The notes beneath the pieces are model-generated. The model made no database searches, was not told where the DNA came from, and saw only the letters and a list, made by a program, of their open reading frames with translations. Both the position numbers and the translations under genes were made by a program. From a bacterium (GTDB taxonomy: Bacteria > Orphanbacterota > Orphanbacteria > Orphanbacterales > Orphanbacteraceae), in assembly GCA_025782575.1 (NCBI GenBank), contig JALGYY010000043.1, positions 142,501 through 206,500 of the forward strand: a DNA stretch of 64,000 nucleotides. The letters are read 5' to 3'. Below are positions 1,414 to 15,750 of this stretch, piece after piece (the stretch's first letter is position 1; every line of letters begins with the position of its first letter).

Positions 1414-1448
1414 CAGGCGGAGCGAGCAACCATGCTCTGCCCCGCCTG
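1414..1448. terminator. Imperfect hairpin between convergent genes
   Basis: Arms CAGGCGG (1414-1420) and CCGCCTG (1442-1448) enclose a further AGCA/TGCT pairing. The hairpin sits between the stop codons of two convergent genes and has no clear T-run on either side. A shared terminator is inferred from position only. Confidence 0.35.
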
Positions 1449-1474
1449 CCCGGATTCTTCATGAATTAATAATT

Positions 1475-3889
1475 CTACCGTACGAGCGTCATCCGCCTCG
1501 TCTCGCTTCGCCCGCCCCACTCGAGCCGGTACATATAGACACCGCTTCCCACCGGCGAACCTGAGTCATTTGTACCGTCCCAGATCAGTTCCCCCGTACG
1601 GGCCGGCTGCTCACCGCTCGACAGGGTGCGCACGATTCGTCCCGCCGGATCGAAGATTCGGAGTACGACCGGGAACGTCTCGTCCGGAACGCTGTAACGA
1701 ATCTTCGTCGTCGGATTAAACGGATTCGGCACATTTCGAGAGAGCTGAAACAGACCAGGCGCATTCGGCACTCCCGTAACGGCACCGACTTCCGTCTCGG
1801 TCGACGGATCCCCCTCGTTCTCATGCACATCAACTGCTGTGACCAGGTAATAGTACACGGTGGAAGGTCCAGCGCCGGCGTCGAGGAATGTCGTGTCGGT
1901 GGCGGTCCCGACGAGCAGCCCCGGAACGGGGGAGAGGCCGGTCTGCGTATCCCGGTAAACTCGATAATGATCCAGATCACCGGCATTATCGACCGGCTTC
2001 TTCCAACTGAGCTCCACATCGGAGCCCTGTCGCGCCCCATAGAGATTGAACGGCGCCGCGGGGGCGAGATTGTCCGCAGAATAGCCACTGTCAGGGTTTG
2101 AAGTGAAGGAAAGGAACTGGCTACTCGTATGAGCGAGGACCTGAAAGTAGTGCATTCCCAGATCAACGCTCGTGGAGTCATTGCGAGTGTCAGCGGCGAA
2201 AGAGTAGCCGGCGAACTGATAAGCCGTCTGGGATCCGATCCATTCCCAGTAGTAGTCTCCTGCCTTTTTTCGGTCCACTCGGAAGATCGGTCCATCGAGG
2301 TCGGAGGGGAGATCGGCCAGGTCCTCGACGATGAGAGCACCCGAATGCTTGGCGGCGCCCGCAGTTGTCGACCGCCAGATCGAGTAATCCTGGATCAGAA
2401 ACTGATTCAAGATATCTCGTCCGCTCGCTGTCCAATTGAGGGAGACCGCGCCACCCTGATCGCCCGGGACATCGGAAACCGACTCGATCACCGGTTCCGG
2501 GTGCCCCCAATAGCCGTAGTCGGTCTCGATCCGCTGGGCATGAACGTCAGCTTCTCCGTTTGTTAATTCATACCAGGAAATCACCGCTGCATCGGGGCCG
2601 GTAGAGGCCATGTGCGGAGTTGACGGCGCCTCGTTCGAAATGAGAACACTGGAACTCCAGAAGGTCTTTCCGTCCGGATCGAAATGATGGGCGAGCAAGT
2701 CATTGGGACCGATGACGTCGTCATGATAGGCCACAACCGTCCCCCCGGCTCCATCCGCGATCACCGAACCGGCTGATTGAACCCCCACGCCGGTGACCAG
2801 CGCCTTCCCATTGTCGTCCCATGCAATGGTTCCGGGGCGATGAACTCGCTGTCCGTAGATATCATTATCCCCGTTACGTGTGTCGTTCCACACGATGATG
2901 GCGCCATCCACTCCGTCCGATACGATTTGCGGACCCCTCTGACTGCCCGATCCATTCGCGATCACGAATCCGTCGGTCGTCCATCTCGGTAGCCCGATAG
3001 AGCTCACGTTCTGGGCATAGACGTCTCTGTTTCCGGCCCGGCCATCCGACCATGTGATGAACGCCCCACCAAACCCATCCTCGAGAATGTTCGGAAGTAC
3101 CTGCTCATTCACCGCCGTGCAGATCGCCGTTCCCCCTGCCCCCCAGAGAGAGGCGCCCCCAGCGTTCACTCGCTGAGCATAAACATCCTCCGTGCCGCTT
3201 CGCTCGTCCTGCCAGGCGATGATGGCGCCGCCCAGCCCGTCCGAGGCAAGCTCCCCGAACAGTTGCGCACCCGCCGCCACACCGGCCGCGAGCCCGTTGA
3301 CGGTCCAGAGAGGTGAGCCGGACGCGTCCAGGCGTTGAACGTAGACGTCTCCCGAGGCATCTGATCGATAGTCGACCCAGGCAATGATGGCGCCGCCCGA
3401 ACCGTCCGGAATTATTTCCGTCAAAATCTGGCTGCTCGTTTCCGAACAGACGGGATTGCCGTTCGACGTCCAGAGCTCATTTCCCGATCCATCGAGCCGC
3501 TGAGCATAGATGTCATTGTTCCCGCTTCGCAGATCCACCCAGGCCACGATGGCGCCTCCGGCTCCATCCGAAACGATTTGTGGTGTATCCTGGTTACCGC
3601 TGGCAAAACACGCAGGGATCCCGTCCAGTGTCCAGATCGGATTCCCGAATCGATCCATTCGCTGGGCGTAGATGTCGAAATCCGACGGACCCCAGCGCTC
3701 ATCCCTCCATACCAGGTAGGAACCACCGGAACCGTCGGAGACCACGTCGATCAGAAACTGGTGTGCGTCTTTGACGCAGACTTCCGATCCGTCCTCCCTC
3801 CATCCCGCGTTGGAGCTGGGGGGGGGGAGGAGCATGGCGAAAAGAGTGAAGATCAGAGCAATCGGGGGTCGAGGATTTGGTGCTGTCAT
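1475..3889 (-). CDS. Exported beta-propeller-like repeat protein with FlgD-like C-terminus
   Basis: Protein of about 804 aa. An ATG at 3889 follows AGGAGGTTCC, so the in-frame GTG at 3910 is not needed. A signal peptide covers about residues 1-28. Next come roughly eight divergent repeats of about 50 aa built on 'DG.GGAI.AW.D.R.G..D.YAQR.D..G...W', which look like blades of a beta-propeller. A fibronectin-III-like segment follows ('LSWKKPVDNAGDLDHYRVYR'), then a C-terminal FlgD-like domain with 'NPFNPTTKIRY' and 'GSGVYMYRLEW'. Such C-termini are common on cell-surface proteins of FCB-group candidate phyla. The ligand is unknown. A tract of ten C on the coding strand lies inside the signal peptide codons. 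The gene diverges from the M16 protease. Confidence 0.85.
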   Translation of the reverse strand: MTAPNPRPPIALIFTLFAMLLPPPSSNAGWREDGSEVCVKDAHQFLIDVVSDGSGGSYLVWRDERWGPSDFDIYAQRMDRFGNPIWTLDGIPACFASGNQDTPQIVSDGAGGAIVAWVDLRSGNNDIYAQRLDGSGNELWTSNGNPVCSETSSQILTEIIPDGSGGAIIAWVDYRSDASGDVYVQRLDASGSPLWTVNGLAAGVAAGAQLFGELASDGLGGAIIAWQDERSGTEDVYAQRVNAGGASLWGAGGTAICTAVNEQVLPNILEDGFGGAFITWSDGRAGNRDVYAQNVSSIGLPRWTTDGFVIANGSGSQRGPQIVSDGVDGAIIVWNDTRNGDNDIYGQRVHRPGTIAWDDNGKALVTGVGVQSAGSVIADGAGGTVVAYHDDVIGPNDLLAHHFDPDGKTFWSSSVLISNEAPSTPHMASTGPDAAVISWYELTNGEADVHAQRIETDYGYWGHPEPVIESVSDVPGDQGGAVSLNWTASGRDILNQFLIQDYSIWRSTTAGAAKHSGALIVEDLADLPSDLDGPIFRVDRKKAGDYYWEWIGSQTAYQFAGYSFAADTRNDSTSVDLGMHYFQVLAHTSSQFLSFTSNPDSGYSADNLAPAAPFNLYGARQGSDVELSWKKPVDNAGDLDHYRVYRDTQTGLSPVPGLLVGTATDTTFLDAGAGPSTVYYYLVTAVDVHENEGDPSTETEVGAVTGVPNAPGLFQLSRNVPNPFNPTTKIRYSVPDETFPVVLRIFDPAGRIVRTLSSGEQPARTGELIWDGTNDSGSPVGSGVYMYRLEWGGRSETRRMTLVR
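3818..3827. repeat. G10 homopolymer inside signal-peptide codons
   Basis: Ten consecutive G on the + strand, read as CCC CCC CCC plus one C on the coding strand, at about residues 21-24 of the surface protein. A length change of one base would shift the frame before the mature protein begins. It is either a slippage-prone contingency tract or a neutral run. Confidence 0.6.
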
Positions 3890-4028: not shown

Positions 4029-6815
4029 ATGGACCGATTTTCGTTCAGGTTTTTTGTTCATGCTCTCTTTTGCGTCTTCATGCTTTCCGGGTCGGACAGA
4101 GCGGCCGGTAAACCGGGGAATGCCCTTCCCGATGGTGTCACGTTCGTCACTTCCGTCGAGGGGATAGACGAGTATCGTCTTGAGAACGGCCTCCGTCTGC
4201 TCCTGTTCCCCGATCTCTCCAAGCAGACGACCACGGTCAACATCACCTATCTCGTCGGCTCTCTTCACGAAGGGTATGGCGAGACCGGAATGGCCCACCT
4301 GCTCGAACATCTGGTGTTCAAAGGATCGACGGGTCATCCGGACATCTACCAGGAACTCACTTCCCACGGATGCCGACCTAACGGGTCGACCTGGACCGAC
4401 CGAACGAATTACTTCGAAACATTTCAGGCGACCAGCGAAAACCTCGAGTGGGCACTCGATCTCGAGGCCGACCGAATGGTGAACAGCTTCATTTCCAGGG
4501 AAGACCTCGATTCCGAAATGACTGTGGTTCGCAATGAATTCGAAATGGGAGAGAACCATCCTGAAATGGTCCTCGCAGAGAGGGTCTACTCCACGGCGTT
4601 CCTCTGGCATAACTACGGAAACACGACGATCGGCGCCCGTTCGGATATCGAAAGCGTTCCGATCGATAGACTCCAGGCGTTTTATCGCACCTGGTATCGA
4701 CCGGAGAACGCTGTGCTCGTCGTGGCCGGAAAATTCGACCGGGAGCAGACCCTCAATCTCGTGCATGAGAAGTTCAGCGAGATCGAAAACCCGAGCAATC
4801 CGTTACCTGAAGTGTATACAGTCGAACCGGCCCAGGATGGCGAGCGTTCAGTCACTCTCCGGCGGGTCGGCAACAAACAGGTCGTCGCCCTTGCGTATCA
4901 CATTCCTGCCGGTTCCCATCCGGAGTTCGCCGCCGTGGAGGTGCTGTCGCTCTTACTTGGAGACACACCTTCCGGCCGGCTCCACGAAGCACTCGTCGAA
5001 ACCGGGATGGCCACCTCGACCAGCGCAGTGGCAGACCGCTTTCGCGATGCTTCTCTCCTCTACATGGAGACGGAACTGAGAAAAGAGGGATCGGCGGATC
5101 AGGTTCAGGAAAAGATGGTTCTGCTGGCGGAGACGTTCGCCTCGCGCCCCCCCACAGACGAAGAAGTGTTGCGAGCGAAAGTAAAGCTCCGCAGTAATTG
5201 GGAGAGGACTCTTCGCAATTCCTCTCGTGCCGCAATCCGCCTCAGCGAGTGGGCGGCGCTCGGCGACTGGCGTCTCATGTTCCTGTACCGGGACAGACTG
5301 GATTCGGTCGAGACCGACGATGTGGTCCGCGCCGCGAGAGCGTACCTGCGAACGGAAAACCGAACGGTGGGGACGTATGTCCCGACAGGGGAAACAGCTC
5401 GAGTGGTAATCCCGGCAGCCCCGGATCCGACCGAGCAGCTTGCGGGATACGGCGGCAAAGAAGCCATGGCGGAAGGGGAGGATTTCGACTCCTCTCCGGA
5501 GAACGTGGAAGCGAGCCTCAAACGCTCGACCTTGCCCGGCGGCATGAAGCTGGTGACCCTCCCCAAAAAGACACGGGGAGAGGCGGTGTGGCTGTCGCTG
5601 ACGCTCCACATGGGGAGCGAGGAGAGTCTCCGGGGTTACGGGACAATCGGAGACCTGACCGGGCAGATGCTCATGCGGGGAACCGAGACGAGAACCCGCC
5701 AGGAGATCCAGGACGAAATCGACCGGAGCAATGCCAGAATGCGTCTGATTGCATCCGCGAGCACGGCGAGCGTCAGTGTCGAGGCAACCCGTCAGACCCT
5801 CCCTGATATGATTGAGCTTCTTGGTGATGTTTTGCAAAACCCTGCATTCCCGGCAGCCCAGTTCGAGCAGATTCTCGAAGAGGCCCTTCAGCGCGAAGAG
5901 GAGGCGAAGCGCGATCCATTCAGTCGTTCCGCAAACGTTCTTGACCGCCACATGTCTCCGTGGCCGAAAGAAGATGTGCGGTACTCACACACCCCCGATG
6001 AGGCGATTGAAGAGATGAAGAAGGTCGTACGGGAGGACCTGATCCGCTTCCACCATGATTTCTATGGCGCCTCTTCCGCTGAACTGGTCGTGGTAGGCGA
6101 TTTCGATCCCGAGGTTATCCGGTCTCTTGCCGGTAAAATCTTCACCGACTGGGACGCGCCGAAGAACTACGAGCACCTCGTTGAGCCGTATCTCGATCGG
6201 CCGGCCATTCTCGAGTCAGTAGAAACGCCTGACAAAGAGAGCGCCGTATTTGTGGCACAGCTTCGGATCGAGCTCCGCGACGATCATGCCGACTACCCGG
6301 CATTGGTTCTCGGAAACTTCATGACAGGAGGGGGCTTCCTGAATTCCCGGCTTGCCACCCGAATCCGCCGCCAGGACGGTCTGAGCTACGGTGTAGGTTC
6401 GTTTTTCCGTGCCGATTCGCGAGATGAGAACGCGACATTCGGCGCATACGCCATTTACGCACCCCAAAATGATGAGAAACTTCTTCGGGCTTTCCGCGAA
6501 GAGATTGAGAAGATCCTGGAAAGCGGATTCACAACCAGCGAAGTGAGCGAAGCGAAGTCGGGTTGGGTTCAGTCTAGGCAGGTTTCACGGGCACAGGACA
6601 GAGAGCTTGCCCGACGATTGAAATCGCACGCGGAGATCGACCGCACGATGTTCTGGGATTCGGAATTCGAGCAGCGGGTACAGGAGTTGACCCCAGAAGA
6701 GATCCTCGGTGCGTTCCGTCGCCACATCGACCCGGACAAGATCAGCATAGTAAGGGCAGGAGATTTCCAGAATGCTGGGGAAGAACACGATCAGGTAGGT
6801 GTCGTCACTCCCTGA
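4029..6815 (+). CDS. M16 family zinc protease, two-domain
   Basis: Protein of 928 aa starting at an ATG preceded by AGGAGGCTCC. A signal peptide at the N-terminus predicts a periplasmic or surface location. The first M16 unit carries the inverted zinc motif HLLEH at residues 90-94, with the downstream glutamate expected in 'SEMTVVRNEFEMGEN'. The second M16 unit (from about residue 480) has the fold signature 'GGFLNSRLATRIRRQDGLSYG' but no HXXEH, as in other single-chain M16 proteases whose second half is non-catalytic. The likely role is degradation of short or unfolded peptides in the envelope. It is not in an operon: upstream is a divergent gene, and downstream a hairpin separates it from the convergent peroxiredoxin. 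Confidence 0.93.
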   Translation: MDRFSFRFFVHALFCVFMLSGSDRAAGKPGNALPDGVTFVTSVEGIDEYRLENGLRLLLFPDLSKQTTTVNITYLVGSLHEGYGETGMAHLLEHLVFKGSTGHPDIYQELTSHGCRPNGSTWTDRTNYFETFQATSENLEWALDLEADRMVNSFISREDLDSEMTVVRNEFEMGENHPEMVLAERVYSTAFLWHNYGNTTIGARSDIESVPIDRLQAFYRTWYRPENAVLVVAGKFDREQTLNLVHEKFSEIENPSNPLPEVYTVEPAQDGERSVTLRRVGNKQVVALAYHIPAGSHPEFAAVEVLSLLLGDTPSGRLHEALVETGMATSTSAVADRFRDASLLYMETELRKEGSADQVQEKMVLLAETFASRPPTDEEVLRAKVKLRSNWERTLRNSSRAAIRLSEWAALGDWRLMFLYRDRLDSVETDDVVRAARAYLRTENRTVGTYVPTGETARVVIPAAPDPTEQLAGYGGKEAMAEGEDFDSSPENVEASLKRSTLPGGMKLVTLPKKTRGEAVWLSLTLHMGSEESLRGYGTIGDLTGQMLMRGTETRTRQEIQDEIDRSNARMRLIASASTASVSVEATRQTLPDMIELLGDVLQNPAFPAAQFEQILEEALQREEEAKRDPFSRSANVLDRHMSPWPKEDVRYSHTPDEAIEEMKKVVREDLIRFHHDFYGASSAELVVVGDFDPEVIRSLAGKIFTDWDAPKNYEHLVEPYLDRPAILESVETPDKESAVFVAQLRIELRDDHADYPALVLGNFMTGGGFLNSRLATRIRRQDGLSYGVGSFFRADSRDENATFGAYAIYAPQNDEKLLRAFREEIEKILESGFTTSEVSEAKSGWVQSRQVSRAQDRELARRLKSHAEIDRTMFWDSEFEQRVQELTPEEILGAFRRHIDPDKISIVRAGDFQNAGEEHDQVGVVTP

Positions 6816-6862: not shown

Positions 6863-7339
6863 TTATCCGTCGATCGCGGCCCTGTCCCGCAACACCTCAC
6901 CCGCATGATCCCCCGGCTTTACTTTCTCATAAACGCGGGCGACCTTCCCTTCCGGGTCGATCAGGAATGACATGCGACTCGTCCCCTCATACGCCCGGCC
7001 CATGAATTTCTTGGGGCCCCAGACGCCGTACTTCTTCACGACTTCTTTTGATTCATCGGCGAGCAGCGTGAACGGCAGATCGTACTTGTTCACGAACTTC
7101 AAATGCCTGGCGACCGGATCAACGCTGACACCGAGAACCTCGATGCCCGCCTTCGTGAGCTCCGGAAAGAGATCACGAAAAGCGCATGCTTCCTTCGTTC
7201 AGCCAGGGGTATCGTCCTTCGGATAAAAGAAAAGGATGACCCACTTCCCCTTGTAGTCGGAAAGCCGTCTTTTCTCTCCCGTCTGGTCCGGCAAGTGAAA
7301 TGCGGGCGCCTTCCTGCCGATTTCCGGTAATCCTGCCAC
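6863..7339 (-). CDS. bcp: Selenocysteine-containing peroxiredoxin (Bcp/PrxQ type), in-frame TGA at codon 47
   Basis: Thiol (selenol) peroxidase of the Bcp/PrxQ class, 158 codons when the internal TGA is read through. The GTG start at 7339 follows AAGGAGGAG and overlaps the upstream stop by one base (TAGTG). The N-terminal half reads 'FFYPKDDTPG', then TGA at 7201-7199, then 'TKEACAFRD'. The TGA occupies exactly the peroxidatic cysteine position of the family (Cys45 of E. coli Bcp), and the second cysteine is kept five residues later (Cys52). The frame stays open to TAA/TGA-free conserved C-terminal sequence ('SRMSFLIDPEGKVARVYEKVKPGDHA'). This is the pattern of bacterial Sec-peroxiredoxins, and a hairpin follows the TGA. 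Alternative: a Cys codon mutated or misread, leaving a pseudogene. A shorter TTG-initiated ORF at 7102 would lack the active site. Confidence 0.88.
7175..7198 (-). promoter_or_regulatory. Hairpin directly after the TGA, candidate SECIS element
   Basis: In the mRNA, the 24 bases right after the UGA fold as ACGAA, a GG bulge, AAGC, loop AUGC, GCUU, UUCGU, giving nine Watson-Crick pairs. Bacterial SECIS hairpins lie in this position inside the coding sequence. The apical loop starts only 11 bases after the UGA and its G is third in the loop, so it does not match the usual bacterial consensus well. A longer alternative pairing (GGAAG with the UUUCC 22 bases on) is also possible. Confidence 0.5.
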
Positions 7340-7836
7340 TACTCCTCCTTCTGATCCGGTGTGGGGTCGTTCTGGAAGTGTTTTCCCCAGAGAATTAACC
7401 AGGCGCCGATCAGGACGAACAGGAGTGGCCAGCCGATGGAGAGAAGTCTCGCCACCTGATCACTCCGCTGGGCCAGACCGGAAAAGATGAGAAAACCGCC
7501 CGGAATGAGCGGCCACCAGACCGTCTGTCTCTCTTTGAACTGCTGGATTATGGCAATGGCGATGAAGCCGACACCCAGACCGATCTGTCCCATTTCTCCT
7601 GAATCGATGCGGAGCTGCTCGATCAGTTTCCCGACACCCAATCCGGATAGAATGCAGCCCGGTATGAGAAAACCGAGCTGGCCGCGATTGAAATAGAGAG
7701 CCAGAAAGACCCCCCCAAGAAAGATGAGCGTGATCTCCCCTCCCAGGTCTTCAGCGAACTGCAGAATGAATAGTCCGAGACCCAGGGCGATCAGAATCGA
7801 GCCGGTTACGACGTTACTTCGTTTCTTCGCGCTCAC
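7339..7836 (-). CDS. Small multi-spanning membrane protein, function unknown
   Basis: Protein of 165 aa with a GTG start preceded by AGAAGGAGGCTGCC. About five hydrophobic segments follow one another ('GSILIALGLGLFIL', 'LIFLGGVFLALYF', 'LIPGCILSGLGVG', 'IGLGVGFIAIAII', 'WPLLFVLIGAWLIL'), with a short charged C-terminal tail. The Gly-rich spacing resembles the membrane domains of LiaF/DUF5668-type proteins, but no catalytic motif is visible. It overlaps the start of the peroxiredoxin by one base, so the two are almost certainly co-translated. Whether it takes part in redox defence is not shown by its sequence. Confidence 0.8.
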   Translation of the reverse strand: MSAKKRSNVVTGSILIALGLGLFILQFAEDLGGEITLIFLGGVFLALYFNRGQLGFLIPGCILSGLGVGKLIEQLRIDSGEMGQIGLGVGFIAIAIIQQFKERQTVWWPLIPGGFLIFSGLAQRSDQVARLLSIGWPLLFVLIGAWLILWGKHFQNDPTPDQKEE

Positions 7837-14139: not shown

Positions 14140-15750
14140 ATGGAAAGTCACGCCCAAATCAAGTCAAACGGAAATCGGGTTGAAATCCTCGGAGCCATGC
14201 CACCCCCGTACGCCGAGGTCCTCTCCTCGGAGGCAGCCGCCTTTCTCGCCCACCTCCATCGACGGTTTGCGGGAGAGATCGATCGGGCACTCCTGAAGAG
14301 AGAAACACGAAGAGAACGCCTTGCCGCCGGTGAGCCGCTACGCTTTCGAGCGGAAACCGCGTCCATTAGAAATACCGACTGGAAGGCCGCCCCCCTCCCT
14401 GCCGATCTTTCCCGCCGGATAGTCGAGATCACAGGACCGGTAGACCGCAAAATGATCATCAATGCGCTGAACTCCGGCGCCGACGTATTCATGGCGGACT
14501 TCGAGGATTCGACCTCGCCTACCTGGGCGAATCTGGTGGAAGGACAACTTCATCTTCGCGATGCCGTTCGAAGAACCATCCGCTTTGAAGATCCCGCTCG
14601 AAAGAAGACCTATCAATTGAACGAGAAGACAGCCACACTTCTCGTTCGCCCCCGAGGCTTTCATCTCATGGAGAATCACTTCCGGGTCGACGGGCGTCCG
14701 ATCCCGGGAAGTCTTTTCGATTTCGGTCTCTATTTTTTTCACAATGCAGCCGAGTTGATATCCCGCGGTTCCGGTCCCTACTTCTACCTGCCCAAACTGG
14801 AATGCCACGAAGAAGCGCGCCTCTGGAATTCCGTTTTTCTGGAGGCGCAGAAGTCGCTCGGTATTCCGCAGGGAACGATCAAGGCGACCGTTTTGATCGA
14901 GACCCTGCCTGCTGCATTCGAGATGAATGAAATCCTTTATGAACTGAAGGAGCATTCTTCCGGACTGAATTGCGGCAGGTGGGATTACATCTTCAGCTTC
15001 ATCAAGACGATGCGGAACGATCCACATGCGATCCTTCCGGATCGGTCCCAGGTCACAATGGAGCAGCCATGCATGCGCGCTTATACCCAGCTGGTGGTGA
15101 AGACATGCCACAGGCGAGGTGTACACGCCATGGGAGGAATGGCGGCCCAGATCCCCATCAAAGGCGATCCGAAAGCGAACGAAGCAGCACTGACAAAAGT
15201 ACGGGACGACAAGATGCGGGAGGTACGGGACGGGCATGACGGCACATGGGTCGCCCACCCGGGCCTCGTCCAGCTGGCACGGGAAATTTTCGAGTCAAAT
15301 ATGACCGGTGACAACCAACTCGATTGTCGGCGGGAGGATGTGTCGGTGGGAGAAGAAGACCTACTCGAGATTCCGACCGGGACCAGGACCGAGCATGGTT
15401 TAAGACTGAACGTTCGAGTCGGGATTCAATACATCGAGGCATGGCTTCGCGGCAACGGCTGTGTCCCCCTCTACAACTTAATGGAAGACGCTGCTACAGC
15501 CGAAATATCGAGGTCCCAGATCTGGCAGTGGATACGGCACGGCGCCACGCTGGATGATGGCCGGCCGATTACGACCGAGCTGCTGAACCAGGTGATCGAT
15601 GAGGAACTTCAGCACATGTTGGATGATGTGGGGAGTGATCGATTCCGGTCCGGCCGGTTCGACGAAGCGCGCGAACTCTTTGCCCGGCTTTCGAGTTCAG
15701 AGATCCTGGAGGAATTTCTTACGCTTTCCGCTTACGGACAGCTTGACTGA
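14140..15750 (+). CDS. aceB: Malate synthase A
   Basis: Condenses glyoxylate and acetyl-CoA to malate, the second step of the glyoxylate shunt, in the cytoplasm. The 536 aa match isoform A length. The start ATG has GGAGGG about 12 bases upstream and a second GGAGGG closer. Signatures seen are 'NSGADVFMADFEDSTSPTW' (Mg/acidic site), 'LLVRPRGFHLMENH', 'KATVLIETLPAAFEMNEILY' and the malate synthase signature 'KTMRNDPHAILPDRSQVTM'. The gene is followed 81 bases later by aceA in the same direction and is divergent from an ScfR/RamB-type regulator, so the shunt genes form one regulated unit. Confidence 0.97.
   Translation: MESHAQIKSNGNRVEILGAMPPPYAEVLSSEAAAFLAHLHRRFAGEIDRALLKRETRRERLAAGEPLRFRAETASIRNTDWKAAPLPADLSRRIVEITGPVDRKMIINALNSGADVFMADFEDSTSPTWANLVEGQLHLRDAVRRTIRFEDPARKKTYQLNEKTATLLVRPRGFHLMENHFRVDGRPIPGSLFDFGLYFFHNAAELISRGSGPYFYLPKLECHEEARLWNSVFLEAQKSLGIPQGTIKATVLIETLPAAFEMNEILYELKEHSSGLNCGRWDYIFSFIKTMRNDPHAILPDRSQVTMEQPCMRAYTQLVVKTCHRRGVHAMGGMAAQIPIKGDPKANEAALTKVRDDKMREVRDGHDGTWVAHPGLVQLAREIFESNMTGDNQLDCRREDVSVGEEDLLEIPTGTRTEHGLRLNVRVGIQYIEAWLRGNGCVPLYNLMEDAATAEISRSQIWQWIRHGATLDDGRPITTELLNQVIDEELQHMLDDVGSDRFRSGRFDEARELFARLSSSEILEEFLTLSAYGQLD

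Follow-up and report, generated by a model that had tools for sequence, protein, structure and literature searches.

A Bcp/PrxQ-type peroxiredoxin gene with an in-frame TGA codon and a predicted selenocysteine at the peroxidatic position

Introduction

Selenocysteine (Sec)-containing peroxiredoxins are assigned to COG1225 (Bcp), with the motif TxxU, in the part of PMC9312934 drawn on here. They are listed as a family in the corresponding part of PMC13188914, where the importance of the PxxxTxxU motif is also stated. Twelve cases are counted in the portion of PMC1794560 that was available, and 43 cases in Sargasso Sea data in that of PMC1088965. The same portion of PMC1794560 counts five changes from cysteine (Cys) to Sec in the peroxiredoxin family and no changes from Sec to Cys.

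The locus reported here agrees with the published Sec peroxiredoxins of COG1225, as the available parts of these papers present them, in the domain, in the position of Sec within PxxxTxxU and in the need for Sec machinery. It was set beside them by description, not by sequence. A preliminary description of the DNA stated that Sec peroxiredoxins with this motif occur in some bacteria, in accord with the parts of PMC9312934, PMC1794560 and PMC1088965 that were available. The Sec-Bcp family is already known from other bacteria and the gene does not alter knowledge of the family. What is mildly new is that no close Bcp is found in six genomes of the same family and that the protein is positioned among Cys forms in a tree.

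Cys-containing Bcp/PrxQ proteins (NCBIfam NF006960) share with the locus a near-full profile match as well as Pro40, Thr44, Arg122 and Cys52, but carry Cys at the peroxidatic position where Sec is predicted here. PrxU (NF040737), which we take to be a selenocysteine peroxiredoxin, belongs to the same superfamily and gives a weak match of 77 bits. Since this is far below the cut-off of 270, the protein is not a member of this longer peroxiredoxin type.

The window analyzed is a stretch of 64,000 nucleotides (C46:142501-206500) from a draft genome that is 95% complete (4,880,233 bases, 49 contigs).

Results and Discussion

The open reading frame and its in-frame TGA codon

The peroxiredoxin frame (6863..7339, minus strand) extends from a GTG start at 7339 to a TAA stop at 6863 and consists of 158 codons plus the stop, with Sec predicted at residue 47 of the 158 aa chain. 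Codon 47 is an in-frame TGA (7199..7201, minus strand) situated at the peroxidatic position of PxxxTxxU and aligned with the Cys of homologues. The surrounding sequence reads TPG-TGA-TKEACAFRD, which gives the motif PxxxTPG-U-TKEAC, and no other internal stop is present in the frame. Cys52 (7184..7186, minus strand), which apart from position 47 is the protein's sole Cys, is the proposed resolving cysteine, a role that we assume by analogy with Bcp proteins bearing a second Cys five residues on. The preliminary description gave the same frame and one TGA in it, at codon 47, took this codon as the peroxidatic Cys position and regarded the resolving cysteine as kept. Frame and TGA were re-read from the sequence and are the same, the alignment with Cys homologues agrees with the assigned position, and Cys52 is present in TKEAC.

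A Shine-Dalgarno-like AAGGAGG (7344..7350, minus strand) is read directly ahead of the GTG. The upstream open reading frame (7339..7836, minus strand, from the list of open reading frames) appears membrane-protein-like by eye and matches neither Pfam nor NCBIfam profiles at E <= 0.001. Its TAG stop shares one base with the peroxiredoxin GTG, and the upstream frame is perhaps translationally coupled to the peroxiredoxin. Inside the gene there is a TTG-started open reading frame of 79 residues (6863-7102); an annotation that treats TGA as a stop would leave this fragment, which is without the active site. As read from the sequence, 6863-7339 is a complete Bcp/PrxQ peroxiredoxin gene, intact save for the TGA.

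The read-through protein matches Pfam AhpC-TSA (AhpC/TSA, PF00578) over residues 7-135 with 153.5 bits (cut-off 26), and NCBIfam NF006960 (thioredoxin-dependent thiol peroxidase) over residues 7-150 with 173.4 bits (cut-off 140). Thus a profile match above the curated cut-off over almost the entire protein places it in Bcp/PrxQ (COG1225). The active-site motif PxxxTxxC/U and the conserved Arg are present as P40, T44, U47 and R122. In both solved Bcp-type sequences whose alignments were inspected, residue 47 is aligned with the Cys of TPGCT, and the counterpart of codon 47 is Cys in 80/80 relatives from named genomes (the best 80 of at least 573 confirmed). The nearest Cys homologue among the matches listed, L165 (genome G326), shares identity at 29/44 positions upstream and 66/111 positions downstream of codon 47. 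Five more Cys relatives are identical at 22-30 of 43-44 positions before the codon and at 58-63 of 107-111 positions after it.

Selenocysteine machinery in the genome

Searches for tRNA-Sec, selB and selD yield matches in all 14 control genomes as well, and the cut-off is exceeded in 5, 2 and 2 of them, respectively; therefore only matches above the curated cut-off were counted. By this measure the draft genome contains tRNA-Sec on contig C21 (72.7 bits, cut-off 47; ARAGORN anticodon tca, i.e. UCA), selA on C2 (524.6 bits, profile positions 1-454 of 455), selB on C2 (378.6 bits, profile positions 2-577 of 581) and selD on C46 (379.1 bits). The genes for selA, selB and tRNA-Sec are thus on contigs that differ from that of the peroxiredoxin, C46. 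The organism had been proposed in the preliminary description to have the Sec pathway, with a lack of selB or selC named beforehand as the observation that would speak against it; tRNA-Sec(UCA), selA, selB and selD are all found in the same draft genome.

The selD gene (L013:1468-2529) is situated approximately 122 kb from the peroxiredoxin gene and carries an in-frame TGA of its own, in the context FATKAG-U-AAK, presumably the usual Sec/Cys site of SelD. With selD and the peroxiredoxin sharing the contig, at least two genes of C46 call for Sec decoding.

The gene that follows selB overlaps it by four bases (L009:419-1444 and 1441-3375) and, named by eye from the open reading frame, resembles a low-specificity threonine aldolase. 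A coupling of this gene with SelB is possible.

The same TGA codon in other genomes

A sample of 386 genomes, seven of the same family and the others spread across the domain, was surveyed with the read-through protein as query. Matches are found in 170 of the 386 at E <= 1e-25. At least six genomes (this one, G156, G181, G340, G069 and G210) show one TGA in the matched frame, and in 6/6 it is at the peroxidatic codon. The Sec machinery of the five other genomes was judged from selD only; in each of the five, selD contains a single in-frame TGA, located at the Sec site of SelD (GU(A/G)xK). The Sec-Bcp sequences of G181, G340, G069 and G210 (L166-L169) form one clade spanning four families.

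A strict DNA motif pattern matches in two of the 386 genomes, this one and G156; the phylum of G156 comprises two genomes, and G156 is the one that has the pattern. The pattern also matched 21 viral-contig stretches, none of which is a peroxiredoxin on translation (0/21), and these were taken as chance matches. A tblastn search of plasmids gave 488 records, every one below 60% identity, and megablast found no plasmid match to the region's DNA.

Reading of the TGA codon

UGA at codon 47 is very probably read as Sec by the SelB/tRNA-Sec system of the cell, in a thioredoxin-type (atypical 2-Cys) Bcp/PrxQ protein. The reading has to be weighed against an error of sequencing or assembly, in which the codon is truly TGC or TGT and the gene an ordinary Cys-Bcp. 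The nearest homologues do carry Cys, namely the 80/80 named-genome loci (again the best 80 of at least 573) and those of G326, G206 and G035. However, out of 158 codons a single error would have had to strike precisely that for which a change to Sec is known, and the genome it struck carries the Sec machinery genes. The same TGA is also present in five other genomes with a Sec-type selD. An error is accordingly very unlikely.

Still less probable, to a degree that makes either one hardly credible, are the two readings in which the TGA is genuine but Sec is not inserted. A pseudogene, or a truncated protein started from the TTG at 7102 with the TGA as a genuine stop, would fit the formal interruption of the frame and the 79-residue open reading frame. 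The absence of any other stop and the substantial identity to homologues on either side of the TGA argue against both, and the short form would be without the active site. No supporting point was found for TGA read as another amino acid, e.g. Trp, whether under an altered genetic code or by way of a suppressor tRNA. Against it, a tRNA-Sec with UCA anticodon is present, and TGA terminates other genes of the window, e.g. the M16 peptidase open reading frame 4029-6815 and open reading frame 14140-15750. In addition, 147 other TGA-interrupted frames of the window passed a loose redox-motif filter, and in a scan of ten of the longer ones, read through, no Pfam domain extends across the TGA (0/10).

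A SECIS hairpin downstream of codon 47 is plausible. The weakly supported candidate obtained by folding (7153..7178, minus strand) has its apical loop approximately 31 nt past the TGA. When a 50-nt stretch is compared with dinucleotide shuffles, z = −1.37. Comparison of five stretch lengths with 400 synonymous-codon versions gives z values of 0.05, −1.29, −1.64, −2.10 and −1.40; overall, z against such controls lies between about 0.05 and −2.2 according to the stretch chosen, and the hairpin does not clearly outdo them. Cys genes treated alike are as extreme in 15/123 and 5/123 cases at two lengths. Over the first 39 nt past the codon, the folding of six Sec genes taken jointly is somewhat superior to that of 123 Cys genes (one-sided p = 0.043), a signal to which this gene contributes nothing (z = 0.06) and in which L166 goes in the opposite direction. 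The bacterial SECIS consensus has a G within the opening bases of its apical loop; by eye, the candidate hairpin is without a G there. The selD of the same genome shows a strong hairpin after its TGA, which at one length takes rank 5 among 400 synonymous controls.

Proposed catalysis

That Sec is inserted, that a SECIS element is present, how the enzyme cycles and what reduces it in the cell are all inferred. The SelB/tRNA-Sec system would decode UGA at codon 47 as selenocysteine, and Thr44 together with Arg122 would position the peroxide. Sec47 would then attack the O-O bond of the peroxide and become a selenenic acid, which would react with Cys52 to give a selenenylsulphide, and reduction of the selenenylsulphide by thioredoxin would recycle the enzyme. 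Positioning of the peroxide by Thr and Arg, oxidation, resolution and recycling by thioredoxin are established Bcp/PrxQ chemistry.

Distribution within the family

A selA above the cut-off is found in five of the seven family genomes including this one, i.e. in 4/6 of the others; the two without selA are G005 (82% complete) and G006 (91% complete). At E <= 1e-50, selD is found in 5/6 of the other family genomes. It has TGA at the Sec site in three of the six (G001, G002 and G004), and in the relative G003 the site is Cys (LGCACK). Sec decoding thus appears widespread in the family, because selA is present in 4/6 and a Sec-type selD in 3/6 of the other genomes.

Each of the six other family genomes lacks a Bcp match at E <= 1e-25, and of the seven genomes this one alone has the Sec peroxiredoxin. 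The preliminary description considered the Sec pathway a notable trait for this lineage. This holds only in part: Sec decoding as such is widespread in the family, and what sets this genome apart from the other six is the Sec peroxiredoxin. The absence of Bcp at this threshold from six family genomes fits horizontal gain or repeated loss. The flanking M16 peptidase was considered as a marker of the orthologous site and set aside, as its matches in the six family genomes reach only 29-35% identity.

Origin of the Sec form

A tree built from 129 Bcp proteins unites four Sec forms in a clade (support 100/98) and groups the gene reported here with the Cys forms of G206, G035 and G326 (99/73). The Sec form of G156 is a long branch in this tree and its position is unsure; L170 is a long branch of unsure placement. 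A tree of 42 rows is in agreement (87/95), and three state changes are needed on the 129-protein and the 42-row trees alike. A single Sec clade is not rejected (p-AU = 0.0719 with 42 rows, six of them Sec, and p-AU = 0.0967 when L170 and L126 are left out), although the best trees separate the Sec forms. The 42- and 40-row sets were hand-chosen from the 129, and the groups for the clade test were named after the sequences were seen. The position of this gene in the tree suggests, but does not prove, that its Cys-to-Sec switch was independent (p-AU 0.07-0.10 for a single clade).

A Cys five residues after position 47 is found in this gene, in its Cys neighbours and in the Sec form of G156. The four clustered Sec forms (L166-L169) have no Cys anywhere in the aligned core and thus look like a one-Sec type dependent on an outside thiol. 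The present gene differs from these four, which are without a second thiol, in that it sits among Cys forms and keeps Cys52.

On balance we favour, with reservations, an independent origin of the Sec form by a Cys-to-Sec change in a horizontally acquired Bcp gene. This reading is preferred because six family genomes show no Bcp at E <= 1e-25, the nearest relatives found in other lineages carry Cys at position 47 and share the second Cys of this protein, and the four clustered Sec forms, placed elsewhere in the tree, lack a core Cys. The five Cys-to-Sec changes counted in the available part of PMC1794560 are in keeping with an independent switch. If such an origin is true, Sec was gained where the machinery pre-existed, and an enzyme with two chalcogens, Sec and Cys, exists beside a separate one-Sec type. 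The gene adds a client enzyme in a Sec-decoding lineage, and Cys and Sec seem to have been repeatedly exchanged at this enzyme.

A Cys-Bcp and a Sec-Bcp are both present in the genome of G156 (G156:C11:92740-95180 and G156:C15:68335-70760), and the two are separate in the tree.
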